Source: an uncultured Mucilaginibacter sp.
Lineage (GTDB): Bacteria > Bacteroidota > Bacteroidia > Sphingobacteriales > Sphingobacteriaceae
Assembly (NCBI RefSeq): GCF_903913935.1
Contig: NZ_CAIWNH010000558.1
Span: 1 to 36,204, forward strand
DNA: 36,204 nt
Direction of reading: 5' to 3'
The position numbers were made by a program, and so were the translations under genes. Numbering within the stretch: position 1 is the first letter of the stretch; each line of letters starts with the position of its first letter. Below, one piece after another: positions 4,010 through 35,497 of the stretch. Below the pieces are notes generated by a model that saw only the letters and a list, made by a program, of their open reading frames with translations, had not been told where the DNA came from and made no database searches.

Positions 4010-5439
4010 ATGAAATTTCCTAAACTTCAATATGTAATAATACTATGGGGTTTAATAGTAATAAATAACAGTTCTTTTGGGCAAAATTACCCGAGAGGGC
4101 TTGACTTTAATGACTCGGCTTACGCCACGGTGCCACGTAAAGCTCCTTTGTTGCGGTCTTTAGATACCATACCTTCCAAATTTTCCTTAAAAGACTATGC
4201 GCCTCATCCAAAAAGCCAGGGCGAATACCTTACATGCACCGCATGGGCATGTGCCTATTGTGCACGCACTATGGTTGATGCCATAAAATATAACTGGACC
4301 AACAAAGATTCGATAACTGCCAAAGCTTTTTCTCCGGCCTTTTTGTTTCGTTTGCTCAGCCCTGGTAATAATGGTTGCTCGGCAGAAACTGATATGGATG
4401 TTGCTCTGCAGCTGATGAAAAACAAGGGTTGCATCCCATACCTTGAGTTGCCATCTATGTGTGTGCCTGCCGTTAGTACGGATCAGATCGGAAAAGCAAC
4501 TAATTATAAAATAAGGGACTTTGCGCGTCTTTTTGATGTAGGCTCTTTCGCTAACCTGAAAATTCAGGCAGTTAAGAAAGCGATATCCGAAAAAAAACCG
4601 GTTATGGTGGGTATTATTTGCCCCCTTCGTTTAATCATGCCTATCATACCTGGCAGCCGACTGAACAGCCCCTTTCAAGTTTTGGTGGCCATGCATTATG
4701 TGTAGTTGGCTATGATGATAATCAATATGGTGGCGCCTTTGAAGTGCAAAACAGCTGGGGTGAAAACTGGGGATTTGAAGGATATACCTGGATAAACTAC
4801 CAGGATTTTGCCCGGTTTGTACGCTATGGGTATGAGCTGATAGACTTGCCAGACGTAAAGCCGGATGTAGCGGACCTTTCAGGCTCGATAAAGCTGATGC
4901 TAACATCAGGCGAGGAAATGCCTGCCAATCTTTCAGTTACAACCCGGGGCTTAATTGCCGTGTCTGCCCAAAAATCGCCAGACCCATTAACCGTTTATCA
5001 AACAGCCAATTCCTATGCATCTGGCACCCGCTTTAATGTTTTTGTAGCAAACGATCAACCGGCTTATGTTTACGCCATCGGTTCGGATCTTGGCAATAAC
5101 GATGTTGTATTATTCCCTTTCGAAAAGAATATCAGCGCAGCCCTTACTTATAAAAAAAGTACTTTCGCGATACCCCAAAATGGCTACATTGAGTTTGATA
5201 AAAAGCCAGGTAAGGATTTTTTGTGTGTGTTATACAGCAGGAGCGAACTAAATATCAATGACATTATCACAAAATTAGGTGCAGAGCAGGGCTCCTTTAA
5301 TCAAAGGATATATAAAGTGATGGCTAACCGAATAGTTGACCCGGGGGATGTGAAATTTGCAAATGATAAAATTGCCTTCCAGGCACATAGCAAAGGGAAA
5401 GAGGTACTGGCAATGATGGTAGAACTAGATCATAAATAG
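4010..5439 (+). pseudogene. Secreted papain-like C1 cysteine peptidase with C-terminal DUF4384, frameshifted
   Basis: One ancestral gene is now split in two frames. The first part (4010-4705) has a signal peptide ending near SSFGQ and the catalytic Cys region SQGEYLTCTAWA (C76, codon 4235-4237). The second frame carries the catalytic His (GGHALCVVGYDD, codon 4690-4692) and Asn (NSWGENWG, codon 4750-4752), then a DUF4384-like domain (GTRFNVFVAND, AYVYAIGSD, FLCVLYS) to the stop at 5439. The switch is at the C run 4621-4625: a sixth C would read ...IICPPSFNHAYHTW and give about 476 residues with the full triad. Without it, the first product ends at 4705 without His and Asn. DUF4384 is often found with caspase-like proteins, and one follows 9 bp downstream. 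Alternatives are sequencing error or phase variation. Confidence 0.85.
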
Positions 5440-5448
5440 AACACTCCG

Positions 5449-8235
5449 ATGATAAAAAGGCGAATAAGCTTATTGGTATTTTTTCTGACGATTTCCGCGT
5501 CGCTGATGGCACAAACCGTTTACCAGCAAAATTTCAGGGAGGTAGATCCACAGTGGTCTGAGCATGACGACATGTACACCCATGAGAAAATTGAGAACCA
5601 CAAATTTGTCATTACCCAAAAGAACATTAAATACTCCTACCAGGCGGTAGAGATTCCGCTGGAGGATGGAAAGGATTATAGTATTGAAACAATAGTTACC
5701 CACATAGCAGGCGGCGAAATGGATCCTTATGGGCTTGTTTTTGCAGGGGAAGGGGCAACGGATAATTATATTTTTGCTATTTCCGCAAATGGCCGGTTTA
5801 TTTTTGGAAGCCAAACCAACGGATTGTTTACGCCTATTATAAGATGGACGGAATCAAATGTGGTAAAACGGGGAAATAGCCAGCCAAACAAACTACGCAT
5901 TGAAACGGCAGGCGACAAATTGAAACTCATTATTAACGACCGACAGGTTGCTAAAATAGCTATGATACAACCTTTTGGCAACGAAGTTGGTTTTGTGGTT
6001 GGTAAGCCTCAAACTGCCGCATTTGAATATTTGCTGGTAAGTTATATGGCTGATCCATCAAATGAAACCGTTAATAAGCCAACTAAACAACCATCCGTTT
6101 TGCCGCGCGCTGATTCCGTTAGGCGCGTAGTTGTTGCCCCAGCCAAGGCAATTGACAGCCCGCCGAATCCTGACGTCGCAAAAATAGCTCCCATAGCGGT
6201 GTCTGCCCCGGTTTTACCGGAAAGCTCCGGCCGTGATTCTATAAAAAAACCGGTAAATGCCGTAACGATTAATGAACGTAAACCTACTGCGGCGGATTCG
6301 GTTAAAAATACCATTGCCCAACCCGTCAATACCGTAGTTGTTTCGCCACCTGCTCCAACGCCTGCCGGAACAGCCAATGCTGTCGTGACCATACCAGTTA
6401 ATCCTTCAATTATCAACCCTGTTATTTCTTCTGCTTCTGTGCCTGTCGACGCCCAGGCTGCCAGACCTGTTAATTCAGTCGTTACCGCACCAGCGGGCGC
6501 CTCTATTATTGATACGGCAAGGAGTGTTCACAATACGATTCCGGCGGTAGCTGCAATAGACACAGCAAAAAAAGCCGTTAACCAGGCGGTTAATTCAGTA
6601 GTCAATCAGCGGCTTAACGCGGTAATTACTGACACCGCTTTTTATGCTGATTTTAATGCCGGCGACAAAAAAAAGTGGGTTTTAAATCAGTCGGATTCTA
6701 CATCACAAGTTATAAGCACGGGTACGTTGAGAATATCGCACAGGGCCAAATTTGGATTTACAGATGCAATCGCTATTTGTAGCCCTAAAGTGGATATGCA
6801 CCGCGACTTTTTGATCAATACAACAACTGTACATTTTTCGGGGAGGAGGAATTACGGTTACGGCATTGAGTTTGGCGCCGATAGTGCCCATCAATATCAT
6901 TTTTGGATCACCGCAAGCGGCTATTATAATATAAGTAAAACGGATGATAAAGGCTTTACAACTACAATAAGCTACAATAGCAGTGATTTTATAAAAAAGG
7001 GCGATAGTGTAAAAAATATGCTTGGCATTGAGCACAAAGGCGGCCAGCTTTATTTTTTTGTTAATGGCCAGCAAGTCGAGAAACACCCCGATATTGATTT
7101 TTCCGGTCATATGTTCGGCGTGTCTGTGGCATCAAGTCAGTTTGTCGGTTTTGACAAATTTACCTTCGGCTTTATTGATAAACCGGCGTCTGCTGTAGCC
7201 TCAGACACAGTTTCGACACCCCAAATTACGGTTACCTCGCCTGAGGTCCCGCGCGGATTAAAGGTGGTGCAGAACAGCGATATGCTGCATGTAGTTGGAA
7301 AAGCTAAAGATAAGGCAGGTATAATCTCCATCAAAGTAAACGATGTGCCGGCAAGCTTTGATGATAATGGAAATTTTATGGTAGATATACCAATGGCTGT
7401 TGGCGAAAATGTCTTAAAGATAGTGGCGCAGAATGCTGAAATGAGATTGGGCTTTTATACATTTCATGTAACGCGAAATGTTATACCCGCTGTTGAACAG
7501 GCCGTGGTGAAACAAGTTGCCTCAGAAGGTAAATACTTCGCATTGCTGATTGGTGAACAGGACTACCTGGATCAGCGCATACCGAGCCTGGAACAACCGG
7601 TTATTGATGCCAACAACTTGTCAAATGCCCTGGTGAATAATTATACATTCGCACCCGAAAATATCAGTATCCTGCAAAACCCCTCCCGAAAGGATTTTTT
7701 TAAAGCCCTCGAGGATATGAAAAGTAAAGTAAATAGCGAGGACAATGTGCTTATATTTTATGCTGGCCACGGCAAGTATGACGATGACCAGCTGCAGGGC
7801 TATTGGTTTCCGTCAGACGCAATGATTGACAGGCGCGATACATGGATCTCAAACTCCGACCTGATCGGTTATTTAAGAGCCATAAAATCAAAGCACACCT
7901 TATTGATCAGCGACGCTTGTTTTTCGGGGAGTATTTTTAAAGGCCGTGGAATAGAGTTTGCCTCAAAGGGAATACAAGAGTTATATAAATTACCAAGCCG
8001 GAAAGCAATGACCAGCGGGATGATGAAGCCGGTAGCCGACAAAAGCATCTTTATTCAATACCTTGTAAAACGGCTTAATGACAATACCGATAAATTTTTG
8101 TCATCCGAGCAATTGTTCTTTCGGTTTAAGGAAGCTGTTGTTAACAATAGTGCAACCGGGCAAATCCCTCAGTTTGGAGAGATCAGGGAGGCTGGTGACG
8201 AGGGTGGCGATTTTATTTTCATCCGGAAAGAATAA
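5449..8235 (+). CDS. Secreted caspase-like (C14) cysteine peptidase with two ConA/LamG-like domains
   Basis: A 928-residue exported protein. The signal peptide is MIKRRISLLVFFLTISASLMAQ. Residues about 23-203 form a concanavalin/LamG-type beta-sandwich (inferred from the strand pattern). Residues 204-395 are a Pro/Val/Ala-rich low-complexity linker with recurring PVN-V words. A second similar sandwich covers 396-578, and an Ig/Big-like module 590-676 (GKAKDKAGIISIKVN). The caspase p20-like domain covers 694-925, with catalytic His774 in YAGHG and Cys824 in SDACFSGS, so the dyad is intact. It follows the C1 peptidase gene by 9 bp and is probably co-transcribed. Known prokaryotic caspase homologues cleave after basic residues. 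The sandwich domains suggest binding to a glycan or surface partner, but that is inference. Confidence 0.88.
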   Translation: MIKRRISLLVFFLTISASLMAQTVYQQNFREVDPQWSEHDDMYTHEKIENHKFVITQKNIKYSYQAVEIPLEDGKDYSIETIVTHIAGGEMDPYGLVFAGEGATDNYIFAISANGRFIFGSQTNGLFTPIIRWTESNVVKRGNSQPNKLRIETAGDKLKLIINDRQVAKIAMIQPFGNEVGFVVGKPQTAAFEYLLVSYMADPSNETVNKPTKQPSVLPRADSVRRVVVAPAKAIDSPPNPDVAKIAPIAVSAPVLPESSGRDSIKKPVNAVTINERKPTAADSVKNTIAQPVNTVVVSPPAPTPAGTANAVVTIPVNPSIINPVISSASVPVDAQAARPVNSVVTAPAGASIIDTARSVHNTIPAVAAIDTAKKAVNQAVNSVVNQRLNAVITDTAFYADFNAGDKKKWVLNQSDSTSQVISTGTLRISHRAKFGFTDAIAICSPKVDMHRDFLINTTTVHFSGRRNYGYGIEFGADSAHQYHFWITASGYYNISKTDDKGFTTTISYNSSDFIKKGDSVKNMLGIEHKGGQLYFFVNGQQVEKHPDIDFSGHMFGVSVASSQFVGFDKFTFGFIDKPASAVASDTVSTPQITVTSPEVPRGLKVVQNSDMLHVVGKAKDKAGIISIKVNDVPASFDDNGNFMVDIPMAVGENVLKIVAQNAEMRLGFYTFHVTRNVIPAVEQAVVKQVASEGKYFALLIGEQDYLDQRIPSLEQPVIDANNLSNALVNNYTFAPENISILQNPSRKDFFKALEDMKSKVNSEDNVLIFYAGHGKYDDDQLQGYWFPSDAMIDRRDTWISNSDLIGYLRAIKSKHTLLISDACFSGSIFKGRGIEFASKGIQELYKLPSRKAMTSGMMKPVADKSIFIQYLVKRLNDNTDKFLSSEQLFFRFKEAVVNNSATGQIPQFGEIREAGDEGGDFIFIRKE

Positions 8236-14662: not shown

Positions 14663-14670
14663 AAAGTATG

Positions 14671-14697
14671 GCCCCCCGCGAAAACGGGGGGCTTTTT
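14671..14697 (+). terminator. Rho-independent terminator after the M28 gene
   Basis: GCCCCCCG (14671-14678) pairs with CGGGGGGC (14685-14692) around a CGAAAA loop, followed by TTTTT. It ends the peptidase transcript. Confidence 0.92.
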
Positions 14698-14815
14698 ATT
14701 TTTAAGGCGAAAATAGCTTGGGTTTAACAGGGAATCCTGGTTTGTTCAAACATGTACGGCTTTTGTTTTGAGGTGTTTACCTGTTAGGGATATTATTACC
14801 TAATCAAATAACTTT

Positions 14816-14823
14816 TATATTTG
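14816..14823 (+). promoter_or_regulatory. Candidate -7 element upstream of susD
   Basis: TATATTTG fits TAnnTTTG about 92 bp before the ATG at 14916, which would give a long leader. No matching -33 TTTG at standard spacing. The rest of 14698-14915 shows no gene. Confidence 0.3.
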
Positions 14824-14915
14824 ATGTAGCACATGATAATGAATCATCGTATAACTTGTCAATACCTCTTTGAACAATTATAAACCGAATTCCTGAACGT
14901 ATTTAATTTTTGCTC

Positions 14916-16781
14916 ATGAAGACTTCTTATGGTAAATACATTGCCCCGGGGGCTTTGGTTGCACTTACTTTAACCTTTTCGTGTAAAAAACTGCTTAACC
15001 AGGCGCCAGTCGGCTCGTTAAACGGCGCGGTCTTGGCCAACAAGGCGGGGCTTGACGGTTTATTGATCGGTGCCTACTCCATGCTGGATGGTTATACCAA
15101 CACTTCCGGCACTGAATGGGAATCGGGTATTGATAATTGGGCCTATGGCGGAGTTGCAGCTGACGATGCTTTTAAAGGGTCGAATTCCACCGACCAAACA
15201 GCGGTAGCACCCATCGCTAACCATACAGTAGATCCCTCAAACGAATATATTGCCGAGAAATGGGCCGCATTTTACAACGCTATTCAGCGTGCAAATGACG
15301 TGATCCGCGAACTTCCTCAAATAAAAGATGGTTCGGTATCCCCGGATTACGCAAAAGAAGTAACAGCCGAAGCGAAATTTTTGCGCGGTGTGTTCCACTT
15401 CGAATTGGCAAAAATGTTCAGGAATGTACCTTATGTAGATGAGTCGATCACTTACGGCGCAGGTAACTTCAACGTACCAAACCCTGGCCCGATATGGGAC
15501 AAAATTGAAGCTGATTTTACTGCTGCAATGGCTGGTTTACCAAAAACACAGGGACAGATTGGCCGTGCCAACTATTACGCAGCCGAAGCTTTTTTAGCAA
15601 AAGCTTACCTTTGGGATCACCAATATGCTAAAGCAAAAACAGCTTTGGATGACCTGATCAACAATGGCGAAACTGCCGGCGGTACCAAATATGCATTGAG
15701 CGCTAATTATGAAGATAATTACAATGCGGTTAAAAAGAATGGTCCTGAATCTGTATTCGCTGTTCAGATGACTGTTAATGATGGCTCAAACGGATCGAAT
15801 GACAATGCTGGTGAGGGCTTAAACTTCCCTGCAGGTACCTATACAGGTTGCTGCGGTTTCTATCAGCCGTCATATACTTTGGCTAACGCCTTTAAAGTGG
15901 ATGAAAATGGCTTGCCCATGTTAGGCACAACAAGTATGTCTGTTGCTGATTTCACCGGTGATAACAAAACAACTACCAACGTTACTGCTAACATTCCAAA
16001 TTCAAGCGTTCAAAACTTAGGTAATGACCATGGATTAGGTGCGGCGGATGCATTCACTCCTCCGTCTGATGCATTAGATCCCCGTATCGACTGGACAGTT
16101 GGCCGTCGTGGTATCCCATATCTTGACTGGGGCCTTTGCGGTGGTGAACAATGGTCACGTGGCGACCTTTGCCCATACAACCCGATCAAAAACGTGTTCT
16201 ACAACTCACAACAAGCTTCAACTGCTGATAATAACGGTGGTTGGGCCAGTAACCAGGGTACAGCTGATAACTACAACCTGATCACTCTTGCTGACCTTTA
16301 TTTATGGCGTGCAGAGTGTGAGGTTGAATCAAGCGACCTTGCCGGTGCAATGGCCGATGTGAACATGGTAAGGGCCCGTATGCAAAACCCTGCAGGCTGG
16401 GTACACACTTATATTGATAACAGCAACCCTAGTGCTGGTTTCACTGATGTGCCGGCTGCTAACTATAAGATTGGTTTGTATACCACATTTGCTTCACAAT
16501 CATATGCCCGCGAAGCGGTTCATATGGAAGAGCAGTTAGAGTTTGGTATGGAAGGTCACCGTTTCTTCGACTTACAGCGCTGGGATCCTATTTATGGTGG
16601 TCCTGAGCCTGCAGGTTACATGGCTGGCGTAGTTAACGGCCATATTGCAGCTGTTACCCGCATTGCTAACCCTGTGTTAGACGGTCACTCATTCACCGCA
16701 GGTAAAAATGAGCTTTATCCAATACCACTTCAACAGGTTACTCTTGAAAATGGTCAATTGAAACAAAATCCTAAATACTAA
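14916..16781 (+). CDS. RagB/SusD-family nutrient-binding outer-membrane lipoprotein (orphan)
   Basis: A 621-residue surface lipoprotein that normally caps a SusC TonB-dependent transporter. The signal ends in a lipobox (TLTFSCKK). The SusD-like N-terminal TPR part has FYNAIQRANDVIRELPQI and AEAKFLRGVFHFELAKMFRNVP; the C-terminal half has the typical LADLYLWRAECEVESSDL...ADVNMVRARM, EEQLEFGMEGHRFFDLQRWD and a final YPIPLQQV.LNG-like LKQNPKY. I use ATG 14916 rather than the TTG at 14910. No SusC gene is adjacent: upstream is a terminated peptidase gene, and a terminator follows. The ligand is unknown. Codon use is regular and C-ending-rich, suggesting high expression. Confidence 0.95.
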   Translation: MKTSYGKYIAPGALVALTLTFSCKKLLNQAPVGSLNGAVLANKAGLDGLLIGAYSMLDGYTNTSGTEWESGIDNWAYGGVAADDAFKGSNSTDQTAVAPIANHTVDPSNEYIAEKWAAFYNAIQRANDVIRELPQIKDGSVSPDYAKEVTAEAKFLRGVFHFELAKMFRNVPYVDESITYGAGNFNVPNPGPIWDKIEADFTAAMAGLPKTQGQIGRANYYAAEAFLAKAYLWDHQYAKAKTALDDLINNGETAGGTKYALSANYEDNYNAVKKNGPESVFAVQMTVNDGSNGSNDNAGEGLNFPAGTYTGCCGFYQPSYTLANAFKVDENGLPMLGTTSMSVADFTGDNKTTTNVTANIPNSSVQNLGNDHGLGAADAFTPPSDALDPRIDWTVGRRGIPYLDWGLCGGEQWSRGDLCPYNPIKNVFYNSQQASTADNNGGWASNQGTADNYNLITLADLYLWRAECEVESSDLAGAMADVNMVRARMQNPAGWVHTYIDNSNPSAGFTDVPAANYKIGLYTTFASQSYAREAVHMEEQLEFGMEGHRFFDLQRWDPIYGGPEPAGYMAGVVNGHIAAVTRIANPVLDGHSFTAGKNELYPIPLQQVTLENGQLKQNPKY

Positions 16782-16800
16782 GGATAAATACTTTAAAAAA

Positions 16801-16835
16801 GAGGTGGTGATGTATATCACCGCCTCTTTTTTTTT
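16801..16835 (+). terminator. Rho-independent terminator after susD
   Basis: GAGGTGGTGA (16801-16810) pairs with TCACCGCCTC (16817-16826), with one G-U pair and a TGTATA loop, followed by a run of nine T. It separates susD from the FG-GAP operon. Confidence 0.9.
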
Positions 16836-16961: not shown

Positions 16962-19900
16962 ATGTTTAAGTTGATGAGAAAAAACCTTTATCTATTGCTT
17001 GGTTTATTTTTTCTATTAATAGTATCATGCAAAAAAAAGGATACACTTTTTGAAACGATCCCATCATCATTTTCGGGCGTTAATTTTAATAATAAGATTG
17101 TTGAAAATGACTCGATCAATCCTTTAGATAAGCTCAATATTTACAACGGCGGCGGCGTAGGAATCGGCGATTTTAACAACGATGGCTTACAGGATATTTA
17201 TTTGGTAGGCAACGCGGTACCCAACAGGTTATACATTAATAAAGGTAATTTTAAGTTTCAGGATGTTACTAAGGAGGCTGGCGTAGGCGGCAAGGGGGGC
17301 TGGGGAAGAGGTGTAGCAGTTGTTGACATAAATAATGATGGTTTATTAGATATTTATGTTTGCAATACATTGCTAAGTGATTCCAATAAACGGACAAACC
17401 TGCTTTACATCAACCAGGGGCCCGATAAAAACGGGGTGCCCCATTTTAAAGAAATGGCCAAAGAATATGGCCTTGATATAAAGTTACATTCTACGATGGC
17501 GTCATTTTTTGATTATGATAATGATGGCGACCTGGATATGTACCTTACCGTAAATGATGCAGAATCATCAGATAATACAAGCACATTCAGGCCTATTATA
17601 CGGGATGGAACAGGAAAAAGCACCGGGCATCTTTACCGTAATGATTGGGATCCTGTGTTAAAACATCCTGTTTTTCATGATGTATCAAAACAGGCGGGAA
17701 TCTTGATGGAAGGGTATGGTCACGCTACCACTACGGTTGATATTAACCGGGATGGCTGGAAAGATATCTATGTAACCAACGATTTTTTGCCCGAAAACAT
17801 ATTATACATTAATAATCATGATGGTACATTTACCGATCGGTCAAAGGAATATTTTAAACATACATCAACCAGTTCGATGGGACAGGATATTGAGGACCTG
17901 AATAATGATGGCCTGGCCGACGTTTTTGAGCTGGACATGTTCCCTGAGGACAATTACCGGAAAAAGATGTTTATGAGTTCAAACTCATACCAGGTTTTCA
18001 GAAATTATGATTATTACGGTTACCAGTACCAATATAACCGGAATACATTACAAATTAACCAGGGGCCGCGCCCCGGACAGAATGACTCAATTGGCGAGCC
18101 AGCCTTCAGTGAAACCAGTTTTTTAAGTGGGGTATCGCAAACCGACTGGAGCTGGTGCCCTTTGATAACCGATTTTGATAACGATGGCTTTAGGGATATT
18201 GTTATTACTAATGGCTATCCGCGTGATGTAAATGACCATGATTTTACAACTTTTAGAGCTGAAGCTTATATGGTGGCTTCAAAAAAACAAATACTTGACC
18301 AAATACCAATTATTAAAATACCAAATTATGCCTTTAAAAACGGCGGCAACCTTCAATTCGCGGATGTAACTAAAAGCTGGGGGCTTGATGTACCTACATT
18401 TTCAAATGGCGCTGCCTATGCTGATCTTGATAATGACGGTGATATGGACCTGGTGATCAACAACATTAACGATGAAGTGCTGATCTACAAAAATACAGCA
18501 AGAGAAAAAAATAAAAGCGATAGTCATTACCTGAACATAAAGTTTGCCGGTGGCAGCCAAAACAAGGACGGGATAGGTGCATGGGCCGATATTTATTATA
18601 GTAATAACAAACACCAGGTGTATGAAAACACGCCCTATCGGGGTTATCTTTCTACAATACAAAATATAGCACATTTTGGCGTTGGCAGGGATAGCCTGCT
18701 TGATTCGGTGGTGATCAAATGGCCAAATGGTAAAAAACAATGCCTTGCAAAAGTAAAGGCCGATCAGCTGCTGAAAGTAAAAATGGCAGATGCAAAAGAT
18801 AATTTCACGTTCGATCTGCCTAAAATAAATACACAATCTTTATTTAAAGAAGTAACCCGCAATGTTGGAGTTACCTACAAACACAAAGAAGACGACCTGG
18901 CTGATTTTAATATCCAAAAGCTGATCCCTCATAAATTGTCGCAGTATTCTCCAGCTATTGCTGTAGGGGATGTTGATGGCAACGGGTATGATGATATGGT
19001 GATTGGCGGAACTTCAAAATATCCTGCCCAGTTACTGTTGCAGCAATCCGACGGCAAATTTATCCAACGCGATTTGCTTCCCAAAGGAGCAGATAACCTT
19101 AAAGATCATTTTAAAGATGAAGGGTTACTGTTGTTTGATGCCAATGGAGATGGCCAGCCTGACCTTTATATAGCAAGTGGTGGCTACGAAAATAAGCCAG
19201 GCTCCCCGTATTACCAGGACAGGCTTTACATAAATGATGGTAAAGGCAACTTCACCGAGGCTGTTGATGCACTTCCTAAAAACTACACCAGTAAGCTATG
19301 TGTGAAAGCAATAGATTATAATAAGGACGGTAAGATGGATTTGTTTGTTTCCGGCCGTGTTGAGCCCTGGCATTACCCGAAACCAGTGTCAAGCATGATC
19401 CTTCGCAATGACAGTAAGAACGGGAAAATAAAGTTTACCGATGTTACGGCAACTGTAGCAAAAGACCTGCAAAACATCGGGCTGGTTTGTGATGCAACTT
19501 TTTCTGATTTCGATAATGACGGCTGGCCTGATCTGATACTTACCGGTGAGTGGATGCCGGTAACGTTTTTGAAAAATGACCACGGTATATTTAAGAATGT
19601 TACGACCAATACCGGAATAAGTGATAAATTGGGCTGGTGGAATACCATAGCGGCCGGCGATTTTAACCATGACGGTAAAATTGATTACATTGTTGGTAAC
19701 ACGGGGTTAAATACTTTTTATAAAGCTTCGGATAAATATCCGGTTTATATCACTGCTAAAGATTTTGATAATAATGGTAGTTATGATGCTTTTCCTTCAC
19801 TGTTTTTAAAAGATCAAAGTGGTGAAATGCAGGAGTTTCCGGTGAATACGCGCGATGATATCATCAAACAGATGATAGGTATGCGGGTAAAATTTCAGAA

Positions 19901-20567
19901 TTACAAATCCTATGCCGTAGCGACAATGGATTCAGTTATCACTCCCGAGATGCGGCAGGAAGCTTTACGGCTGAAGGTAAACACCATGGAATCCTGTTAT
20001 TTGCGTAATGATGGAGATGGGAAATTCACAATGACCCCTTTGCCGCTTGAGGCCCAGGTTTCGCAGCTTAATGGGATGGTAGTAGATGATTTTGATGGGG
20101 ATGGAAACCTGGACATTGCTTTAAACGGTAACGACTATGGAACTGAAGTTGGGACCGGGCGCTATGACGCATTTAACGGACTAATGTTAAAGGGCGATGG
20201 GCACGGAAATTTCACACCGCTGACGCTTCAGAAGAGTGGTATTTACATTCCGGGGGATGGAAAGGCCCTTGTAAAATTAATGGGCGCAAAAGGCGACTAT
20301 TTGATTGCTGCGAGCCAAAACAGGGATGTACTTAAAATATTTGAACTAAAACGGGCGGTTCATCCGCTTAAAATCGAACCCACAGACGCCTACGCTATAA
20401 TAAAATATAAAAACGGGAAAATAACCAAATTGGAATTTTATAACGGCACGTCTTTTTTGTCGCAGTCAGGCAGGTTTTTTAATGTTGATAATACCATGGA
20501 ATCAGTAAAAATTACTGACAATATGGGTCGGGGTAGGAATGTTCTGTTAAACCAATATATGAAATGA
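16962..20567 (+). CDS. Large lipoprotein with FG-GAP/VCBS propellers and ASPIC/UnbV domain (CRTAC1-like)
   Basis: About 1,201 residues. The start is taken at ATG 16962 (alternatively 16974; a TTG at 16932 is unlikely), giving a lipoprotein signal ending LFFLLIVSCKKK. At least a dozen Ca-binding-type loops of pattern DxDxDGxxD occur, such as DFNNDGLQD, DYDNDGDLD and DFDNDGFRD in the first half and DVDGNGYDD, DFDNDGWPD and DFDGDGNLD in the second. An ASPIC/UnbV domain (~525-610; HFGVGRDSLLDSVVIKWPNG) separates the two sets, so the protein looks like two propellers around an ASPIC module. It is probably surface-exposed and binds protein or polysaccharide. Its TGA overlaps the next start (ATGA), implying translational coupling with the haloperoxidase-like gene. 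Confidence 0.9.
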   Translation: MFKLMRKNLYLLLGLFFLLIVSCKKKDTLFETIPSSFSGVNFNNKIVENDSINPLDKLNIYNGGGVGIGDFNNDGLQDIYLVGNAVPNRLYINKGNFKFQDVTKEAGVGGKGGWGRGVAVVDINNDGLLDIYVCNTLLSDSNKRTNLLYINQGPDKNGVPHFKEMAKEYGLDIKLHSTMASFFDYDNDGDLDMYLTVNDAESSDNTSTFRPIIRDGTGKSTGHLYRNDWDPVLKHPVFHDVSKQAGILMEGYGHATTTVDINRDGWKDIYVTNDFLPENILYINNHDGTFTDRSKEYFKHTSTSSMGQDIEDLNNDGLADVFELDMFPEDNYRKKMFMSSNSYQVFRNYDYYGYQYQYNRNTLQINQGPRPGQNDSIGEPAFSETSFLSGVSQTDWSWCPLITDFDNDGFRDIVITNGYPRDVNDHDFTTFRAEAYMVASKKQILDQIPIIKIPNYAFKNGGNLQFADVTKSWGLDVPTFSNGAAYADLDNDGDMDLVINNINDEVLIYKNTAREKNKSDSHYLNIKFAGGSQNKDGIGAWADIYYSNNKHQVYENTPYRGYLSTIQNIAHFGVGRDSLLDSVVIKWPNGKKQCLAKVKADQLLKVKMADAKDNFTFDLPKINTQSLFKEVTRNVGVTYKHKEDDLADFNIQKLIPHKLSQYSPAIAVGDVDGNGYDDMVIGGTSKYPAQLLLQQSDGKFIQRDLLPKGADNLKDHFKDEGLLLFDANGDGQPDLYIASGGYENKPGSPYYQDRLYINDGKGNFTEAVDALPKNYTSKLCVKAIDYNKDGKMDLFVSGRVEPWHYPKPVSSMILRNDSKNGKIKFTDVTATVAKDLQNIGLVCDATFSDFDNDGWPDLILTGEWMPVTFLKNDHGIFKNVTTNTGISDKLGWWNTIAAGDFNHDGKIDYIVGNTGLNTFYKASDKYPVYITAKDFDNNGSYDAFPSLFLKDQSGEMQEFPVNTRDDIIKQMIGMRVKFQNYKSYAVATMDSVITPEMRQEALRLKVNTMESCYLRNDGDGKFTMTPLPLEAQVSQLNGMVVDDFDGDGNLDIALNGNDYGTEVGTGRYDAFNGLMLKGDGHGNFTPLTLQKSGIYIPGDGKALVKLMGAKGDYLIAASQNRDVLKIFELKRAVHPLKIEPTDAYAIIKYKNGKITKLEFYNGTSFLSQSGRFFNVDNTMESVKITDNMGRGRNVLLNQYMK

Positions 20568-21883
20568 GAAATGTTAAATTAACGGCAGTTTTGCTTTTAG
20601 CATTAGTTGCCGTGGGTTGTTCCCACAAAAACAAATCAGTACCAATAAATGATGCTGATGTGCTGCATGAAAATGAGCACCAGTTAACACAGGTAATTAT
20701 TTACGATGTGTTTACTCCGCCCGTAGCGTCACGTATTTATGGTTACACGGCACTTGCATCGTATGAGGCGATGCGTTATGCCGACCCGAAATTTAGTTCA
20801 ATTATTACCCAGCTCAAAGGCTTTGGTAATCCGCCCGTACCCCAAAAAGGCAAAGACTACAATTTTGCCTTAGCCGCAACCAAGGCATTTTTTACGGTGG
20901 CACATAAGGTAACCTTTTCTATAGACTCTTTAAAAAAGTATGAAAATGGTGTTTACCAGATGTACAAAGATAATCTTGACGACTCCACATATGCGCGTTC
21001 GGTTGATTTTGGCGAACAAATTGGGAAATTAATATTAAAAAGAGCCGATGTTGACGATTACCCCCAAACCAGGGGAAAACCGAAATATTTAGGTGAAACC
21101 AGCCCTGCAAAATGGCGCCCTACTCCGCCGGATTATATGGATGGCGTTGAATTTTGCTGGGGTGATATGAAAGTTTTGGCTGTTGATTCCTCAAAACAGT
21201 TTTTTCCGGGTCCGCCGCCGGCTTATAGTGAGGATAAAAATAGTGCATTTGTTAAGCAATATATGGAGGTATATAACAAAAACAAAAGCTTAACTGACGA
21301 GGAAAAACTAACTGCCGCTTACTGGGATGATAACCCGTTTGTAATTCAACATAGCGGTCATTTAATGTTTGCTGATAAAAAGATCACTCCCGGCGGGCAC
21401 TGGATAGGTATTACTACCATAGCCTGTAAGCAAAGTCATGCTAACGCAGTTAAAACTGCGCAAGCCTATGCGCTTACTTCAATAGGTTTGTATGATGCAT
21501 TTATATGCTGCTGGGAAGTAAAATATAAATACAGCTATGCAAGGCCGGTGACTAATATTAACGAGAAAGTCGATCATTACTGGCTGCCTTTATTGCAAAC
21601 GCCTCCATTCCCTGAATATACTGCCGGCCACTCCACCATCAGCGCTGCGGCAGCAGTTTTGTTAACACATTAATTTGGCGACAATTTTGCCTTTCAGGAT
21701 ACAAGTGATCTTCATTACATAGGCAAACAACGGCATTTTGACTCTTTTATTAAAGCGGCTGATGAAACTGCCCTGAGCCGGTTTTATGGTGGGATCCATT
21801 ATCTTAACAGTTCACTGGTAGGTGAGGCCCAGGGTAAACAAATCGGCGATTTTATCTGGAATAAATTAAAACTGACTAATTAA
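20564..21883 (+). pseudogene. Vanadium-dependent haloperoxidase-like (PAP2 fold) lipoprotein, interrupted by an in-frame TAA
   Basis: Family role: vanadate-dependent halide oxidation or phosphatase chemistry at a PAP2-type site. The signal ends VAVGCSHKN, a lipoprotein. Three vanadate/phosphate-site motifs are visible: K320...R327-P328 (KYKYSYARP), H356 in YTAGHST, and R406/H412 in SRFYGGIHY. A TAA at 21671-21673 (codon 370) falls between motifs two and three; the same frame continues FGDNFAFQDTSDLHYIG and on to a natural stop at 21881-21883, about 439 residues. The 369-residue truncated product would lack the third motif and be inactive at this site. A single base change or sequencing error would explain it; readthrough is a less likely option. 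It is coupled by ATGA overlap to the upstream gene, and the next gene starts 17 bp after the natural stop. Confidence 0.88.
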
Positions 21884-21900
21884 ACGATTTATAATTTGCA

Positions 21901-23451
21901 ATGAACTTTAAAAAGCCTTATTTATTTACATTCTACCTTATTTTGTTGGTCGGGTTATTCTCCGGTTGCTTATTGATCAACGGTTGTTCCTCAAACGGAC
22001 CCGCTGCGTACACAATTACGGGCGATACCCTTGTTGATGGCAAAAAGCTAGTGGAGATCAATTGTGCCAAATGCCATGCGCTGGTACCGGCAAATGCGCT
22101 TAATAAAAACGTTTGGAGCCACCATACGCTACCACATATGGCGCACTACGTGGGACTGTCTTCTTATCTTGGCGGATATTATAAAAGTGAAAAAGATACA
22201 GGAGGAATGTCATTGTCTGAATGGCAAATCATCGTCGGTTATTACCGAAAGCTGGCCCCTGATACCATACTATCTATCCCAAAGCCAACCCCCTTACTAA
22301 ATGATTGGGCTGGATTTACGTTGAAAAAACCAGAACAGGCTAAGTTTTCGACCTATACAACCATGGCAATGGTAAATCCGTTTACCCATAAAATTTATAC
22401 TTCAGATGCTTTGACGGACAGGTTGCTTGAGTGGGATAGCAATTTTAACGCGCGAAAAGTAACAACGTTGCCATCAACAACTGTGAACGCAATCTTTAAA
22501 AAGGATGACAAAGGAAATAACATTGGCATTTTTTCGAGTATTGGCCAGATACAGGCTGTTGATTTTCCGAATGGCAGGGTGTTAAATATTAACCTTGATT
22601 CAAAAACTGATACAACTGCAAACCTGGTTGCCGATGACCTGGCCAGGCCGGTTCAGACGCTGGAAGGTGATTTTAATAAAGATGGCCTAACCGATGTAGT
22701 AATACTGGGGCAGGGACATTATAGGGGTGGCGTTTATCTATTTAAACAAAATCCTGACCACAGCTATGCCCAATCCAATATTTCAAATAAAGCCGGTGCT
22801 GTTCAGGCGGTAGCAGGTGATTTTAACAATGATGGCTGGCAGGATCTGATGATATTGTTTGGCAGCGGCGATGAGGGTTTATGTTTGTTTTTGAATGACC
22901 ATAAGGGTGGTTTCACCGAGAAGAATTTGCTGCGTTTTCCGCCTGTTTATGGATCAACCAGCTTTCAGCTGGCCGATATGGACCATGATGGCAAACCTGA
23001 CCTAATTTATACAAGTGGTTATAATTTTAATGATTCGCGAATATTAAAGCCCTATCACGGTGTGTATATTTTTAAGAATATGGGTAACTGGGATTTTAAA
23101 CAAAAATGGTTCTACCCGTTAGATGGTTGTACAAAAGCTATCGCAGCTGATTTTGATGGAGATGGCGACCTGGATATTGCGGTAAGTTCATTTTATGCAG
23201 ATCTGCAACATAATCCAGAGGCGGGGTTTGTGTATTTTGAACAGGTAAGCCCTTTTAACTTTAAAGCCCATGCGATCCCTGTTAGTAAAAATGGACGCTG
23301 GTTTACTATGGATGTAGGCGATTACAACGGTGATGGCAAGCCCGATATAGTTTTAGGTAACTACAGTACCGGGTTTATGATACAGGGAGTTAAACCGTTC
23401 TGGGATGCAAAAACTCCTTTTATAGTACTGGAGAATAATTTCAAAAAGTAA
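21901..23451 (+). CDS. Lipoprotein fusing a cytochrome c-type heme motif to FG-GAP/VCBS repeats
   Basis: A 516-residue protein with an N-terminal signal containing two possible lipoboxes (LFSGC, LINGC). Just after it is CAKCH (C55, C58, H59), the c-type heme motif, in VEINCAKCHALVPA, with a nearby methionine (LPHMAHYVG) that could be the distal ligand. The rest (~120-510) is a propeller with FG-GAP loops: DFNKDGLTD, DFNNDGWQD, DMDHDGKPD, DFDGDGDLD and DYNGDGKPD. It follows the haloperoxidase-like gene by 17 bp and probably ends that operon. The heme domain suggests electron transfer at the cell surface or periplasm, perhaps to or from its neighbour; that link is inference. Confidence 0.85.
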   Translation: MNFKKPYLFTFYLILLVGLFSGCLLINGCSSNGPAAYTITGDTLVDGKKLVEINCAKCHALVPANALNKNVWSHHTLPHMAHYVGLSSYLGGYYKSEKDTGGMSLSEWQIIVGYYRKLAPDTILSIPKPTPLLNDWAGFTLKKPEQAKFSTYTTMAMVNPFTHKIYTSDALTDRLLEWDSNFNARKVTTLPSTTVNAIFKKDDKGNNIGIFSSIGQIQAVDFPNGRVLNINLDSKTDTTANLVADDLARPVQTLEGDFNKDGLTDVVILGQGHYRGGVYLFKQNPDHSYAQSNISNKAGAVQAVAGDFNNDGWQDLMILFGSGDEGLCLFLNDHKGGFTEKNLLRFPPVYGSTSFQLADMDHDGKPDLIYTSGYNFNDSRILKPYHGVYIFKNMGNWDFKQKWFYPLDGCTKAIAADFDGDGDLDIAVSSFYADLQHNPEAGFVYFEQVSPFNFKAHAIPVSKNGRWFTMDVGDYNGDGKPDIVLGNYSTGFMIQGVKPFWDAKTPFIVLENNFKK

Positions 23452-23555: not shown

Positions 23556-24128
23556 CTATTTTGATCTTAAGATCTCAAGATGTGCTTGTTTTCTATCCTG
23601 TCGCAAATTTATAGCTGCATTTGTAAAATAATAATGGCTCTCGAAAAACGACACCTGCAACTTATTCCATTCATCGATGTTTTTTACTACGCCGCCATAA
23701 GCAAATTCCTTATAGAGGAGATCGCTGATCCGGAAAAAATCGTCCCTGCCAAGGTAATCGAGATCAGCATCCGCTATAATCTGTTCTAATAGGTTTTTCG
23801 GCGTTTGCGGTAGCCGCGTTGCCATAATCATACCACTGATTTTTTCAATGTCGCCAGTTCCAAAGCCGAAGTTTGGTAAGTACAATTCTGCTATCCGGCA
23901 TGAGCCTTCTTCGTGATTAGCTGCTCCTTCAATAAATCCGGAATCGTGAAATAAAGCTGCGGTAAGCAATAATTGCATTTCATGTATAGTAATGTTTTCA
24001 AGTTTGCCTAAATTTTCAGCAGCCTCGCAAACATCCATTACATGATCGTAACTATGGTAGGTGAGGTGAGCCGGTAGCTCCCTTTTAAGTTTGTTTAATA
24101 TGAATTCCTTCGCTGCCTGAAACTGCAT
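23556..24128 (-). CDS. HD-domain metal-dependent phosphohydrolase
   Basis: A 190-residue cytoplasmic protein of the HD superfamily. The metal-binding set is present: H29 in YHSYDHVMDV, H61-D62 in ALFHDSGF, and the acidic IADADLDYLG segment (D120-D124). H72 in the ANHEEGS segment fits the additional HD-family ligand region. No nucleotide-specific domain is attached, so the substrate (nucleotide or second messenger) cannot be assigned. It is a single gene, convergent with the FG-GAP operon and divergent from the GH2 gene. Confidence 0.85.
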   Translation of the reverse strand: MQFQAAKEFILNKLKRELPAHLTYHSYDHVMDVCEAAENLGKLENITIHEMQLLLTAALFHDSGFIEGAANHEEGSCRIAELYLPNFGFGTGDIEKISGMIMATRLPQTPKNLLEQIIADADLDYLGRDDFFRISDLLYKEFAYGGVVKNIDEWNKLQVSFFESHYYFTNAAINLRQDRKQAHLEILRSK

Positions 24129-24407: not shown

Positions 24408-27203
24408 ATGAAAAAAGCTTTTTATTTACTTACTATTGCTTTAATAATCATTTCTTTTTTGCCTGCTTATCTTTTTGCGCAAAACGGAACTGTTAAACAA
24501 GTCAAACTTACAAATTTTGATTTGCAATCATCATCCCAGGTAAGCGCTTCAGGCGAGGAGTTATCAAAGAGCAATTATAAGTACAAGGGTTATTGGTTCC
24601 CTGTTAAAGTTCCCTCGACAGTTCTTACCGGCCTGGTGGCGAATCATATTTATCCTGATCCGTATCAGGGCCTTAATAATATGCTGATTCCTGATGCTTC
24701 TGATCAGTTTAACAAAGAATATAACCTCGAGCAATACAGCTATTTGCCCAATGAACCCAACCCCTGGAAAAAACCGTATTGGTATCGCACCACCTTTAAA
24801 GTACCTGCGGGTGACAAAGGCCGTCACTTCCAGCTAATTTTTGAGGGAATAAATTATCGTGCAGCGGTTTGGGTAAATGGGACACAAATAGCCGACTCCA
24901 CCCAAATGGCCGGCATGTTTGCTGATTATAACCTGGATGTAACTAATGCTATAACAACGGGGTGCGAAAATACCCTTGCAGTAAAAATTTACCCGCTTGA
25001 TTATGCAGGCTATCCTGCAAAAGAACAATTACAAGCCTTGGGCCCATTTTTTGAAAACGGGGGACCAACAGGCGATATTGGTAAAAACGTAACCATGTTA
25101 TGTTCGGTAGGGTGGGACTGGATCCCGCCCGTTCGTGATCGTAATATGGGGATCTGGCAGCCCGTTTACCTGCGTACAACCGGCGCAGTAACCATCGGGC
25201 ATCCAAAATTAGTTACTGAATTGCCAAATCTGCCCGATACAAGTGTTGCCAAATTATCATTAAACCTCTCTCTCAGCAATCACGGTGCAACTGAGCAAAA
25301 AGGGAAATTAAGCATCAGCATAAAACCTGAAAATTTTGCAGGATTACCGGTTCAATTCATTCAAAACGAAACGGTTGCAGCGAACGGTATCACAATGGTG
25401 GATTTGAATGCCGAAAAGATCAGCCAATTGCTTATTCATCAGCCGCATTTATGGTGGCCTAATGGTTATGGTAAGGCCAATTTATACCGCATCCGATTGC
25501 AGTTTATGGACGGAAAGGGGATCGCTGATGATACTTCATTTGTTTTTGGGATCCGTACTGCCAGTTCGACGGCCACAAATGTTAGGGGTTTTGTTAGGCG
25601 CGATTTTTATGTTAACGGCAAAAAAGTACACCTAAACGGTGGTGCCTGGGTACCCGATATGATGGTGAACCGCGATTCGGCGCGTTATGATTATGAAATG
25701 CACTTGTGCCGTAATGCTAATGTCAATCTGGTACGGATCTGGGGCGGGGGCGTAACACCACCGGACGCGTTTTGGAATGCTGCCGACAAATATGGTGAGA
25801 TGGTATGGTCAGACTTTTGGGTTACAGGCGATACCCAGGGCGAGTTTAAGGGTTCGCCGGACTGGCCCATTGAGGGGAACGTTTTTGTGAAAAACATAGT
25901 AAGCACCATTTATAGGATCCGCAACCACCCCAGCTTATTGGTATGGACAGGCGGTAATGAGGGCCACGCCCGTAAAGAATTATACGATGCTATGCGCGAT
26001 AATATTATAGCCATGGATGGTACACGGCCTTTTATACCCAGTTCATCGGGCTATGCCAAATTGCCTGCAGGATGGAAAGGTTCGTACCCGGATGATATGC
26101 CATCAGGTGTTTACAGCGGAGGGCCGTATCAATGGGAAGATCCAAAAGTGTATTATAAAAAGGCGGATTTCGGTGGCGATTGGGTATTTAAAGATGAAAC
26201 CGGTATCCCCTCGCAACCACCTTATACCACGCTCGCTAAAACCATTCCCGACCTGGTTTGGGATACTAAATTGCCATACCCTTTAAATAATAGCTGGGGT
26301 TACCACGATGCTTGTACCGGCGCGGCTCAATATGACAAATATTATAACGAAATGGTAAAACGGTATGGACAGCCGTCAACGCTGGTGAATTTTTCCGATA
26401 AAATGCAGCTAATGAACTGGGTGGGTTACCAGGGTATTTTTGAAGCTGCCGGGCATAAACTGAATGAGACAGGCGGGGTAATGTTGTGGAAACTAAATTC
26501 GGCCCTGCCAAGTGTGGTATGGCAAATATATGATTGGTACCTGGAACCGAATGCGGGTTATTACGCCATGCAAAACGCGGTTGAACCACTACATATCCAG
26601 TTTAACCAGGATGATTCAACGGCGGCCGTTATCAACCGTATGCATCGCGCCACAGGTTTGTTAACCGCAACGGCCGACATTTATGATATTAACAGCAAGT
26701 TGGTAAAAACATTTAGTGTAAATCACATCGGCCTTGCTGAAGCCGGTACGCAGGAGGTGATCCATTTAAAAGAAATTTTAAAAACTGCGAAAGGCGTAAG
26801 TTTTGTTGTGTTGAATTTAACGAACGCTACAGGTAAAACGGTGTCGCACAACGTTTACTGGATGGCGCCTGGTGATGATTTGACTGGCTTTAACAGCCTG
26901 CAGCAAGCGCAGGTGCAGGTAAAAGTATTAAAAGCCGAAAAGGGTATCAGCGAAAACAAATGGACACTGCAGGTTAGCAACAAGACAGATAAAATAGCCT
27001 TTTTTGTACGCCCGCAGTTGATGCAAAATGGTGAAGAAGTTATGCCAAGTTACTGGACCGGCAATTACTTTACGCTGGCGCCCAATGAGCGCATCACTAT
27101 ATCGGTGAGTGCGCCGGTAGCCAAACTGGGAAAGGAGCAACCCACTGTTTTATTAGAAGGCTGGAACATCCCGAAGCAGGTAATATCTTTAACTGTAAAA
27201 TAG
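24408..27203 (+). CDS. GH2 glycosidase (exo-beta-glucosaminidase / beta-mannosidase type)
   Basis: A 931-residue exported glycoside hydrolase (signal MKKAFYLLTIALIIISF...LFAQ). The N-terminal jelly roll includes YWYRTTFKVP and RAAVWVNGTQIADS; an Ig-like domain follows, then the TIM barrel with the segment NVNLVRIWGGGVTPPDAFW. Predicted acid/base Glu518 is in VWTGGNEGHA and predicted nucleophile Glu597 in FKDETGIPSQPP. The motif MLWKLNSALPSVVWQIYDWYLEPNAGYY followed by EPLHIQF, split here between barrel end and C-terminal domain, matches the CsxA exo-glucosaminidase and plant endo-beta-mannosidase branch better than LacZ. It probably releases terminal GlcN or mannose units in the periplasm or outside. 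Exact specificity is uncertain. Confidence 0.88.
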   Translation: MKKAFYLLTIALIIISFLPAYLFAQNGTVKQVKLTNFDLQSSSQVSASGEELSKSNYKYKGYWFPVKVPSTVLTGLVANHIYPDPYQGLNNMLIPDASDQFNKEYNLEQYSYLPNEPNPWKKPYWYRTTFKVPAGDKGRHFQLIFEGINYRAAVWVNGTQIADSTQMAGMFADYNLDVTNAITTGCENTLAVKIYPLDYAGYPAKEQLQALGPFFENGGPTGDIGKNVTMLCSVGWDWIPPVRDRNMGIWQPVYLRTTGAVTIGHPKLVTELPNLPDTSVAKLSLNLSLSNHGATEQKGKLSISIKPENFAGLPVQFIQNETVAANGITMVDLNAEKISQLLIHQPHLWWPNGYGKANLYRIRLQFMDGKGIADDTSFVFGIRTASSTATNVRGFVRRDFYVNGKKVHLNGGAWVPDMMVNRDSARYDYEMHLCRNANVNLVRIWGGGVTPPDAFWNAADKYGEMVWSDFWVTGDTQGEFKGSPDWPIEGNVFVKNIVSTIYRIRNHPSLLVWTGGNEGHARKELYDAMRDNIIAMDGTRPFIPSSSGYAKLPAGWKGSYPDDMPSGVYSGGPYQWEDPKVYYKKADFGGDWVFKDETGIPSQPPYTTLAKTIPDLVWDTKLPYPLNNSWGYHDACTGAAQYDKYYNEMVKRYGQPSTLVNFSDKMQLMNWVGYQGIFEAAGHKLNETGGVMLWKLNSALPSVVWQIYDWYLEPNAGYYAMQNAVEPLHIQFNQDDSTAAVINRMHRATGLLTATADIYDINSKLVKTFSVNHIGLAEAGTQEVIHLKEILKTAKGVSFVVLNLTNATGKTVSHNVYWMAPGDDLTGFNSLQQAQVQVKVLKAEKGISENKWTLQVSNKTDKIAFFVRPQLMQNGEEVMPSYWTGNYFTLAPNERITISVSAPVAKLGKEQPTVLLEGWNIPKQVISLTVK

Positions 27204-34192: not shown

Positions 34193-35497
34193 ATGACTAA
34201 GGCTGACATTTTAATTATCGGCGCCGGCGCTACGGGTTTAATGGCTGCCGTCACGTTAGCTAAGGCGGGCAAAATGGTAATTGTGCTGGAAGCCCGTAAC
34301 CGTTGCGGTGGGCGCATCCATACCATTAACCAGGGCTTGTTTTTTAAGGATACAGAACTTGGAGCGGAATTTATCCATGGCGACTTGCCGGTAACATTAA
34401 GTCTGTTAAAAGAGGCGGGTATTGCATTTGATACCGCTTCAGGGGAAATGGTGCATTATAAAAATGGGAAATTCAATAATGATGAGGGCGTTGAAGGATG
34501 GGACCTGTTGATGCAAAAACTCAAAACCATAGATAAAGACATTAGTATTAATGAGTTTTTGGATAGAGAATTTGGCAGCGAAGCATACCATGACTTGAAA
34601 AATTCAGTGCGCCAATTTGCTGCAGGCTATGATTCAGCCGATCCGGATCGGGGAAGTACTTTTGCGCTGCGAAATGAATGGCTGAATGATGATGAGGATG
34701 CACAATACAGGGTTAAAGGCGGTTATGTGAAAATAGTGGACTATTTGGAAGACAGGATAAAAAATGCGGGCGGAAGCATTTTTTTGAATTCGGCCGTTAA
34801 AGAGATTAAATGGAAGCCGGGGTATGTGAAAGTGATTACCAATGACGGTGTTGTTTATGGGGCAGGTCAGTTGCTCATTGCACTGCCTTTGGGGGTTTTG
34901 CAGGCAGATAAAGACCAATTGGGGGCATTAACCTTTAACCCGCAGATCTCTGAACAGATGGCAGCTATTAACCAAATGGGTTTTGGCGCTGTTATTAAAA
35001 TACTGCTTGAATTTGATGAGCCTTTCTGGATAGATAAACAAACGGAATTACAGGCAGGTAAGAACCTGGAAAATATGATTTTCTTACTATCTGACGAAGA
35101 GATCCCCACCTGGTGGACACAGACTCCGGATCCAAGTCCTGTAATTACAGGCTGGTTAGGTGGCCCGCCCGCTGCGGCTAAGAAAGATGTTCCGGATGAG
35201 GAAGTTTTACGGCAATCGTTGCAATCGTTAAGCAATATATTTAAAAGGAACATCGAAGATCTAAAAGCAAAGGTGGTTGCATCCCGAATTGTAAACTGGA
35301 CCAATGATCCTTTTACGATGGGGTCTTACGCTTATGATACCGTTAATGCTTCTGCCTTTCGCGAAATATTGAAGCAGCCTGTCGATAATACACTGTTTTT
35401 TGCAGGTGAATATCTATATGATGGCGCTGCAATGGGAACCGTAGAAGCAGCGTTAACAAGCGGGGAGGAAGTGGCGAAAAAGATGATTCCAAAATAG
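34193..35497 (+). CDS. Flavin-dependent amine oxidase
   Basis: A 434-residue FAD-dependent oxidoreductase of the monoamine oxidase/polyamine oxidase family. The dinucleotide-binding motif IIGAGATGLMAA is near residue 7, GGRIHT follows, then ELGAEFIHGD. The C-terminal FAD motif is LFFAGEYLYDGAAMGTVEAAL. No signal peptide is seen, so it is probably cytoplasmic. Substrate amine is not evident. It runs in the same direction as the PEPM/ICL gene 48 bp upstream; a near -7 (TATATTTA, 34167-34174) could give it its own promoter. Confidence 0.9.
   Translation: MTKADILIIGAGATGLMAAVTLAKAGKMVIVLEARNRCGGRIHTINQGLFFKDTELGAEFIHGDLPVTLSLLKEAGIAFDTASGEMVHYKNGKFNNDEGVEGWDLLMQKLKTIDKDISINEFLDREFGSEAYHDLKNSVRQFAAGYDSADPDRGSTFALRNEWLNDDEDAQYRVKGGYVKIVDYLEDRIKNAGGSIFLNSAVKEIKWKPGYVKVITNDGVVYGAGQLLIALPLGVLQADKDQLGALTFNPQISEQMAAINQMGFGAVIKILLEFDEPFWIDKQTELQAGKNLENMIFLLSDEEIPTWWTQTPDPSPVITGWLGGPPAAAKKDVPDEEVLRQSLQSLSNIFKRNIEDLKAKVVASRIVNWTNDPFTMGSYAYDTVNASAFREILKQPVDNTLFFAGEYLYDGAAMGTVEAALTSGEEVAKKMIPK

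Follow-up and report, generated by a model that had tools for sequence, protein, structure and literature searches.

Iodoperoxidase relatives in Bacteroidota are known chiefly from marine algae-degraders, and Mucilaginibacter is a mostly terrestrial genus. The structure 4USZ_A is that of the vanadium iodoperoxidase of Zobellia galactanivorans; in Arenibacter strain C-21, iodine uptake is H2O2-dependent, and a mechanism combining glucose oxidase with a haloperoxidase has been proposed (PMC5064120). Complexes that are centred on SusCD and contain additional lipoproteins, termed utilisomes, are documented (PMC7618045). Here, a stretch of 36,204 nucleotides from an uncultured Mucilaginibacter sp. 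(contig NZ_CAIWNH010000558.1, hereafter the window) was analysed, in which three adjacent genes at 16962-23451 encode: an FG-GAP/ASPIC lipoprotein (gene 1); a relative of the vanadium-haloperoxidases (VHPOs; gene 2); and a c-type heme domain fused to an FG-GAP propeller (gene 3). The reading favoured here, with a probability of roughly 0.55, is that these genes belong to a conserved SusC/SusD-type locus of Bacteroidota, present here as an eroded copy; the locus would combine a VHPO of the ZgVIPO1 type with propeller proteins and cytochromes and would support halide chemistry.

Gene order in related loci

Gene order was compared in two sets of VHPO loci. The genus set comprises all 46 rows with a VHPO at least 59% identical to that of the window, the window itself excluded; 38 have enough flanking sequence (at least 7.6 kb upstream and at least 4 kb downstream) and were kept, and 8 were dropped. 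The named set comprises the best 80 of 583 confirmed VHPO candidates from a genome scan, of which 60 with at least 4.5 kb upstream and at least 2.5 kb downstream were kept and 20 dropped. Some genomes appear in both sets; the sets are not independent of each other. A sample across the phylum (296 genomes) was scored with at most five candidates per genome. Distant VHPO loci, of which part were retrieved, are counted solely in a redundant neighbour table of 176 loci. The genome to which the window belongs is a 603-contig draft of 5.26 Mb.

The VHPO family is present in 51 of 61 Mucilaginibacter genomes, the window's own counted, and its usual setting in the genus is the order SusC, SusD, hairpin, FG-GAP/ASPIC, VHPO, heme/FG-GAP and second cytochrome. 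In the orthologous genus loci, gene 1 lies directly upstream of the VHPO in 33/38, SusC is present in 32/38 and gene 3 in 27/38. Spacing is tight, with -31 to 34 bp between gene 1 and the VHPO and -27 to 28 bp between the VHPO and gene 3. In 50 of the 60 named loci, a same-strand gene 1 homologue is found within 6 kb of the VHPO, whereas about 1.4% would be expected by chance (6 matches in the 5.26 Mb of the own genome). Among the 39 named loci whose VHPO is at least 50% identical to that of L046, 36 have gene 1, 35 have SusC and 23 have gene 3.

The SusC-SusD-gene 1-VHPO order is found in Mucilaginibacter, in one Pseudopedobacter metagenome-assembled genome, in Chitinophagaceae and in Dyadobacter. 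Gene 3 is downstream of the VHPO in Mucilaginibacter and Flavihumibacter and upstream of it in Segetibacter, Cnuella and Flavisolibacter; the association therefore recurs in different orders. In the phylum sample, the VHPO family occurs in 63/296 genomes and the gene 3 family in 31/296, and 25 genomes hold both, compared with 6.6 expected if the families were independent and kinship is ignored.

In 27 of 33 relatives with both SusD and gene 1, a hairpin (below -8 kcal/mol) with T6 lies between the two (raw count). This would fit a single locus that comprises SusC/SusD and the lipoprotein genes and in which expression is stepped down. Taken in aggregate, gene order in the relatives establishes the intact unit, each gene being assigned by sequence, as: SusC; SusD; the hairpin; the FG-GAP/ASPIC gene; the VHPO gene; often the heme/FG-GAP gene; and, in Mucilaginibacter, a second cytochrome gene.

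Assignment of the three genes

Coordinates of the three genes and of the features around them are collected in Table 1.

Table 1. Features of the window at and around the haloperoxidase-like gene
Feature	Positions	Strand	Basis
SusD-like lipoprotein	14916..16781	+	Pfam SusD_RagB 3.4e-33; usual partner SusC not adjacent
Hairpin of terminator or attenuator type with T run, in the interval from SusD to gene 1	16795..16832	+	
Gene 1: lipoprotein with two FG-GAP propellers and an ASPIC/UnbV region	16962 (or 16974)..20567	+	Pfam, loops, AlphaFold2 (AF2) model
Gene 2: VHPO relative, open reading frame (ORF) shortened by in-frame stop	20564..21673	+	Read-through match to 4cit
In-frame TAA, codon 370 of gene 2	21671..21673	+	Intact relatives without stop here
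Remaining gene 2 frame past the stop, untranslated if the stop is real; counterparts of R406 (21779-21781) and H412 (21797-21799)	21674..21883	+	
Gene 3: c-heme domain (CAKCH 22063-22077, conserved W72 and M80) with FG-GAP propeller, lipoprotein	21901..23451	+	
HD-like hydrolase	23556..24128	-	Weak Pfam HD-CE match
Glycoside hydrolase family 2 (GH2) enzyme, downstream locus end in many relatives	24408..27203	+	Pfam; GH2 in 15/38 orthologous loci

Gene 1 matches the Pfam families FG-GAP_3 (1.9e-68) and UnbV_ASPIC (1.5e-17). Its 14 calcium-type loops (Dx[DN]x[DN]G) are divided into seven before and seven after the ASPIC region, which fits two seven-bladed propellers. The nearest solved relative, both by sequence (2.1e-15) and by fold, is CRTAC1 of the FG-GAP/ASPIC family (PDB 9etn), the top fold match of an AF2 model with a pLDDT (predicted local distance difference test) of 89.3 (Foldseek E 1.2e-25). 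Gene 1 differs from CRTAC1 in having an additional second propeller and in being a bacterial lipoprotein.

The truncated ORF of gene 2 alone gives no Pfam family at 0.001. When the stop is read through as X, the product has 439 residues, matches PAP2 at 1.4e-6 and aligns end to end (residues 7-437) with PDB 4cit_A (1.9e-113; 2.3e-190 with a profile), 4cit/4usz being the closest solved structure. The read-through encodes K320, R327, G355, H356, R406 and H412, all six invariant in alignments of 12 and 24 rows; in this family, these residues belong to the vanadate site.

In gene 3, the CAKCH motif corresponds to residues 55-59 and the propeller to FG-GAP_3 (8.4e-35). Pfam cytochrome models match weakly, below the cut-off. 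By sequence, gene 3 qualifies as a c-type cytochrome, with CxxCH and a conserved distal Met and with heme as the predicted ligand: CxxCH is present in 60/60 heme/FG-GAP proteins, that of the window among them, with W72 and M80 in at least 95%. In a further alignment of 53 rows that includes copies away from a VHPO, C55, C58, H59 and W72 are invariant and M80 is kept in at least 90%.

These assignments agree with an initial annotation of the window, made from its letters and ORFs. It had proposed three adjacent, closely spaced lipoprotein genes, and each has a Cys of the lipobox type that is kept in relatives: C21 in gene 1 and C29 in gene 3 (invariant, 34 rows each) and C19 in gene 2 (at least 90% of 24 rows). 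Gene 2 begins within the stop codon region of gene 1, with 4 bp shared (ATGA), and gene 3 starts 17 bp past the read-through end of gene 2. The two-propeller description of gene 1 is upheld by Pfam, the 7 + 7 loops and C21; the fusion of a heme c motif to FG-GAP repeats in gene 3 is likewise confirmed by CAKCH and FG-GAP_3, and the heme motif, whose conservation among homologues had been named as a check, is invariant. The vanadium-haloperoxidase type of gene 2 holds in its read-through form, by the 4cit match and the conserved site; that the gene is broken had already been recognized, the annotation speaking of a "repaired" enzyme.

A second cytochrome gene after gene 3

In all 27 genus loci with gene 3, the position following it is occupied by one of two types of gene: a second heme/FG-GAP gene in 21 and a heptaheme lipoprotein gene in 6, with both in 0 and neither in 0. 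The heptaheme gene lies on the reverse strand and encodes seven CxxCH motifs behind a lipoprotein-like start. It and the heme/FG-GAP protein fall into different sequence clusters, both with c-heme motifs. Among 44 tips of known state on the VHPO tree, 15 have the heptaheme gene and 29 a second gene 3 copy, which requires 8 Fitch changes; the state has switched more than once, at some points between sister loci such as L129 and L127. Mutual replacement of two c-heme proteins from different clusters points, indirectly, to a common requirement for electron transfer, and hints that heme may be what this slot requires. The heptaheme family (for example L052:5737-6972) occurs in 38/61 genus genomes, often away from a VHPO as well.

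Probable damage to the window copy

The in-frame TAA has no counterpart in relatives. No stop interrupts the match in 46/46 genus rows, and the ORF is open in 80/80 named loci. The counterparts of R406 and H412, which hold vanadate in this family, are encoded past the stop. Gene 2 as it stands encodes an incomplete enzyme, a broken member of its family, and the window copy probably makes no haloperoxidase, having lost the C-terminal end of the predicted vanadate site.

Constraint in the part past the stop is similar to that in the part before it, with pN (nonsynonymous) of 0.05-0.15 and pS (synonymous) of 0.55-0.89 in five comparisons; the stop is therefore either recent or an error. Somewhat short of an even chance, in our estimate, is that it is an error of sequencing or assembly and that the enzyme of the living organism is intact, a view that opposes the erosion part of the favoured reading alone and fits the operon. 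The constraint past the stop, the 603-contig state of the draft and the apparent splitting of another gene of the window (4010-5439) all speak for an error, but a very recent genuine mutation would give the same picture, and two other losses, the missing second cytochrome gene and the location of SusC elsewhere, fit real erosion. The gene at 4010-5439 appears as two overlapping ORFs in different frames that resemble one split papain-family protein, with Peptidase_C1 found in the second only, and may be a further frameshift in the window, genuine or made by assembly. Next to it, at 5449-8235, a large protein is encoded that contains a domain of the caspase type (Peptidase_C14).

The downstream neighbours of the window, a minus-strand HD gene and then GH2, resemble those of L126 and L130, the latter its sister on the VHPO tree. 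In both loci a heptaheme gene lies between gene 3 and the HD gene; in the window it is absent. A search of the whole own genome found no heptaheme relative, the same search being positive elsewhere in the genus (38/61 genomes), and no second gene 3 copy was found in the own genome. Within the window, tblastn detected no similarity to SusC, and no convincing remnant of the heptaheme gene or of SusC was seen.

Judged by an adjacent SusC and SusD, the window holds SusD only, with SusC on contig C189 (L125). There, SusC is followed by the 5' part of a second SusD gene, which shows 82% identity to the window SusD in an alignment of 496 bases; its last 58 bases, at one end of the contig, match the window SusD exactly. 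The 3' part of this second SusD gene lies on contig C490 (L266), at 88% over 1313 bases; own-genome searches gave no gene 1, VHPO or gene 3 match on C490. The own genome thus appears to have two SusD copies, and SusC appears to belong with the other one. Misassembly as the sole cause of the missing SusC was set aside, given this second SusD copy with SusC on C189/C490.

At 14663-14916, the window joins an M28 peptidase gene to the SusD block. The two are apart in relatives: in one single-contig genome, M28 is at 7.07 Mb and the VHPO locus at 4.56 Mb, and none of eight relatives examined (0/8) has a SusD match in the approximately 6 kb after M28. This junction may be either a genuine rearrangement or a mis-join. 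The stop, the lack of an adjacent SusC and the lack of a second cytochrome gene together suggest that the window carries an eroded or damaged copy of the conserved locus.

Neighbouring genes

Distant VHPO relatives are found beside GH65-type genes in 21/176 redundant loci, and trehalase or FGGY kinase genes are close to some other loci (this observation concerns L097, L099, L102, L104, L105, L106, L113, L114, L123, L124, L177, L229, L233, L235 and L236). This suggests a different sugar context for the distant VHPO branch. A flavin amine oxidase gene lies downstream in the window (34193-35497), and its relatives are within six genes of the VHPO in 16/176 redundant loci.

Discussion

If the favoured reading holds, the intact locus could work as follows. 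The SusC/SusD importer would form an outer-membrane base, on which the propeller proteins would serve as calcium-stabilized scaffolds or glycan binders. The haloperoxidase, with H2O2 and vanadate, would act at the cell surface and oxidize a halide there, iodide or bromide being the likeliest, or else a substrate; halide oxidation would modify or loosen the substrate, which would then be imported by SusC/SusD. The cytochromes would carry electrons to or from the haloperoxidase chemistry. The comparison shows which genes are present, their order and the conservation of the catalytic and heme-motif residues; the surface location, the complex, the halide, the electron route and the substrate are what we infer. 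Utilisomes are a precedent for lipoprotein complexes around SusCD (PMC7618045), and Arenibacter C-21 is one for pairing a haloperoxidase with a sugar oxidase that makes peroxide (PMC5064120). A stronger form of this proposal is an oxidative utilisome, in which the outer-membrane SusC/SusD importer would carry a VHPO along with one or two cytochromes wired to it. Oxidation of a halide at the surface would then act jointly with extracellular electron transfer to prepare the substrate for import, and two apparently unrelated cytochromes would be interchangeable in one position; this is advanced tentatively, as a doubtful extension.

Several observations weigh against the favoured reading. Gene 3 is missing in 11/38 genus loci and gene 1 in 5/38. 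Of the 21 named loci with a VHPO below 50% identity, 14 have gene 1, 0 have gene 3 and 0 have SusC. Among the 25 phylum-sample genomes with both families, the VHPO and gene 3 lie within 5 kb in 5, 4 of them in the genus (by eye); in one further genome the two are about 10 kb apart (by eye). Gene 3 outside the genus therefore mostly accompanies other loci. The rule for the second slot is limited to orthologous genus loci; in the paralogous L116 and L117, as in the Chitinophagaceae loci, there is one heme gene. The count of 8 slot changes leans on a VHPO tree with weak nodes and equals the minimum of 500 label shuffles (mean 12.8), which indicates that the slot state is partly inherited. The loci have no fixed source of H2O2: genes of a GMC-oxidoreductase-like cluster are within six genes in 7/176 redundant VHPO loci. 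The halide preference of the window VHPO may differ from that of 4cit, because Ala replaces Ser before the conserved GH, and the wider VHPO family may be mixed, because the L122 paralogue has an Asp typical of phosphatases.

That Asp bears on whether gene 2 encodes a haloperoxidase at all. PAP2 phosphatases and VHPOs have a common fold and share most of the site, and the phosphatase motif, SRx5Hx3D, ends in an Asp. The PAP2-fold enzyme could be an acid phosphatase that dephosphorylates the substrate before its uptake by SusC/SusD, the heme proteins serving something else; the PAP2 match, the presence of SusC/SusD and glycosidases in the locus and the Asp that L122 has four positions past the last His are in line with this. 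However, L122 is the most distant of 12 rows (32% identity), at the same position the window has Ser (HYLNS) and 11/12 rows have Ser or Ala, the match to 4cit runs end to end, and repeated coupling to cytochromes is unexpected for a phosphatase, making this alternative unlikely. Equally improbable is that the genes are neighbours merely since SusC/SusD loci gather surface lipoproteins, with no joint function. The heme/FG-GAP and gene 1 families do occur beside SusC/SusD without a VHPO (several of L206-L225), but tight spacing on one strand, recurrence across orders and lineages and the second-slot rule argue for more than shared surroundings.

A further possibility, to which we likewise give a low probability, reverses the roles: the heme/FG-GAP protein, a propeller that acts on sugars and uses its heme for electron transfer, would be the principal enzyme, with the VHPO in an accessory role, removing peroxide that arises when sugars are oxidized. 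This draws on the propeller of gene 3, which makes an enzymatic role on sugars a serious competitor and so also counts against the favoured reading. In an AF2 model (pLDDT 87.6), its best fold match is aldos-2-ulose dehydratase (PDB 4a7k, 4a7y, 4a7z), with Z 30.9 over 351 residues at 3.2 Å for 4a7y and Z 27.4 for the next match from another family. The Pfam model AUDH_beta_propeller matches 1/34 gene 3 relatives, at 0.0012, and GH2, GH3, GH65-type and GMC genes are near some loci. A common propeller fold is no proof of function, however: VCBS-type propellers comprise both binders and enzymes (PMC8023676). The two proteins differ in that identity is 12-13% and gene 3 adds an N-terminal heme domain, and the sequence match is not significant (E 0.68).

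Under the reading of an eroded SusC/SusD-type locus, the surface redox complex proposed in the initial annotation is partly supported: gene order and the catalytic and heme residues favour a conserved redox module. The two conditions that the annotation named as refuting it turned out largely in its favour. Adjacency in relatives, which the annotation had set as a check, is kept as an order in much of Mucilaginibacter and as other orders in Chitinophagaceae, but the heme gene is lacking from part of the genus loci and is mostly away from the VHPO outside the genus. The annotation overlooked the membership in a SusC/SusD locus with its hairpin, the usual second cytochrome and the erosion of the window copy. 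If the proposal is true, the locus offers a genetic handle on the role of VHPOs on land (halogen cycling, polymer attack) and links cytochromes with a locus of the SusCD type; the role of heme becomes testable through the interchangeable second cytochrome.

Comparison with known systems

The operon type is assembled from known families, in a combination not found described in the literature searched: by title and abstract opening, which makes for a weak negative, no description of an operon with SusC/SusD, FG-GAP, haloperoxidase and cytochrome was found. To the Zobellia galactanivorans iodoperoxidase (4cit, 4usz), gene 2 is related end to end, with the full vanadate site in its read-through; unlike that enzyme, it has Ala for Ser before the conserved GH, and the window copy stops short of the last Arg and His. 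Arenibacter C-21 is likewise a member of Bacteroidota, with at least five 4USZ homologues, but it is marine, and the text on it describes no operon with SusC/SusD, FG-GAP or cytochrome genes (PMC5064120). The SusCD utilisome, or polysaccharide utilization locus (PMC7618045), shares with the relatives of the window the grouping of SusC and SusD with glycosidases and extra lipoproteins in a single locus. In contrast, the window has its SusD without an adjacent SusC, and the extra lipoproteins here include a VHPO relative and cytochromes.

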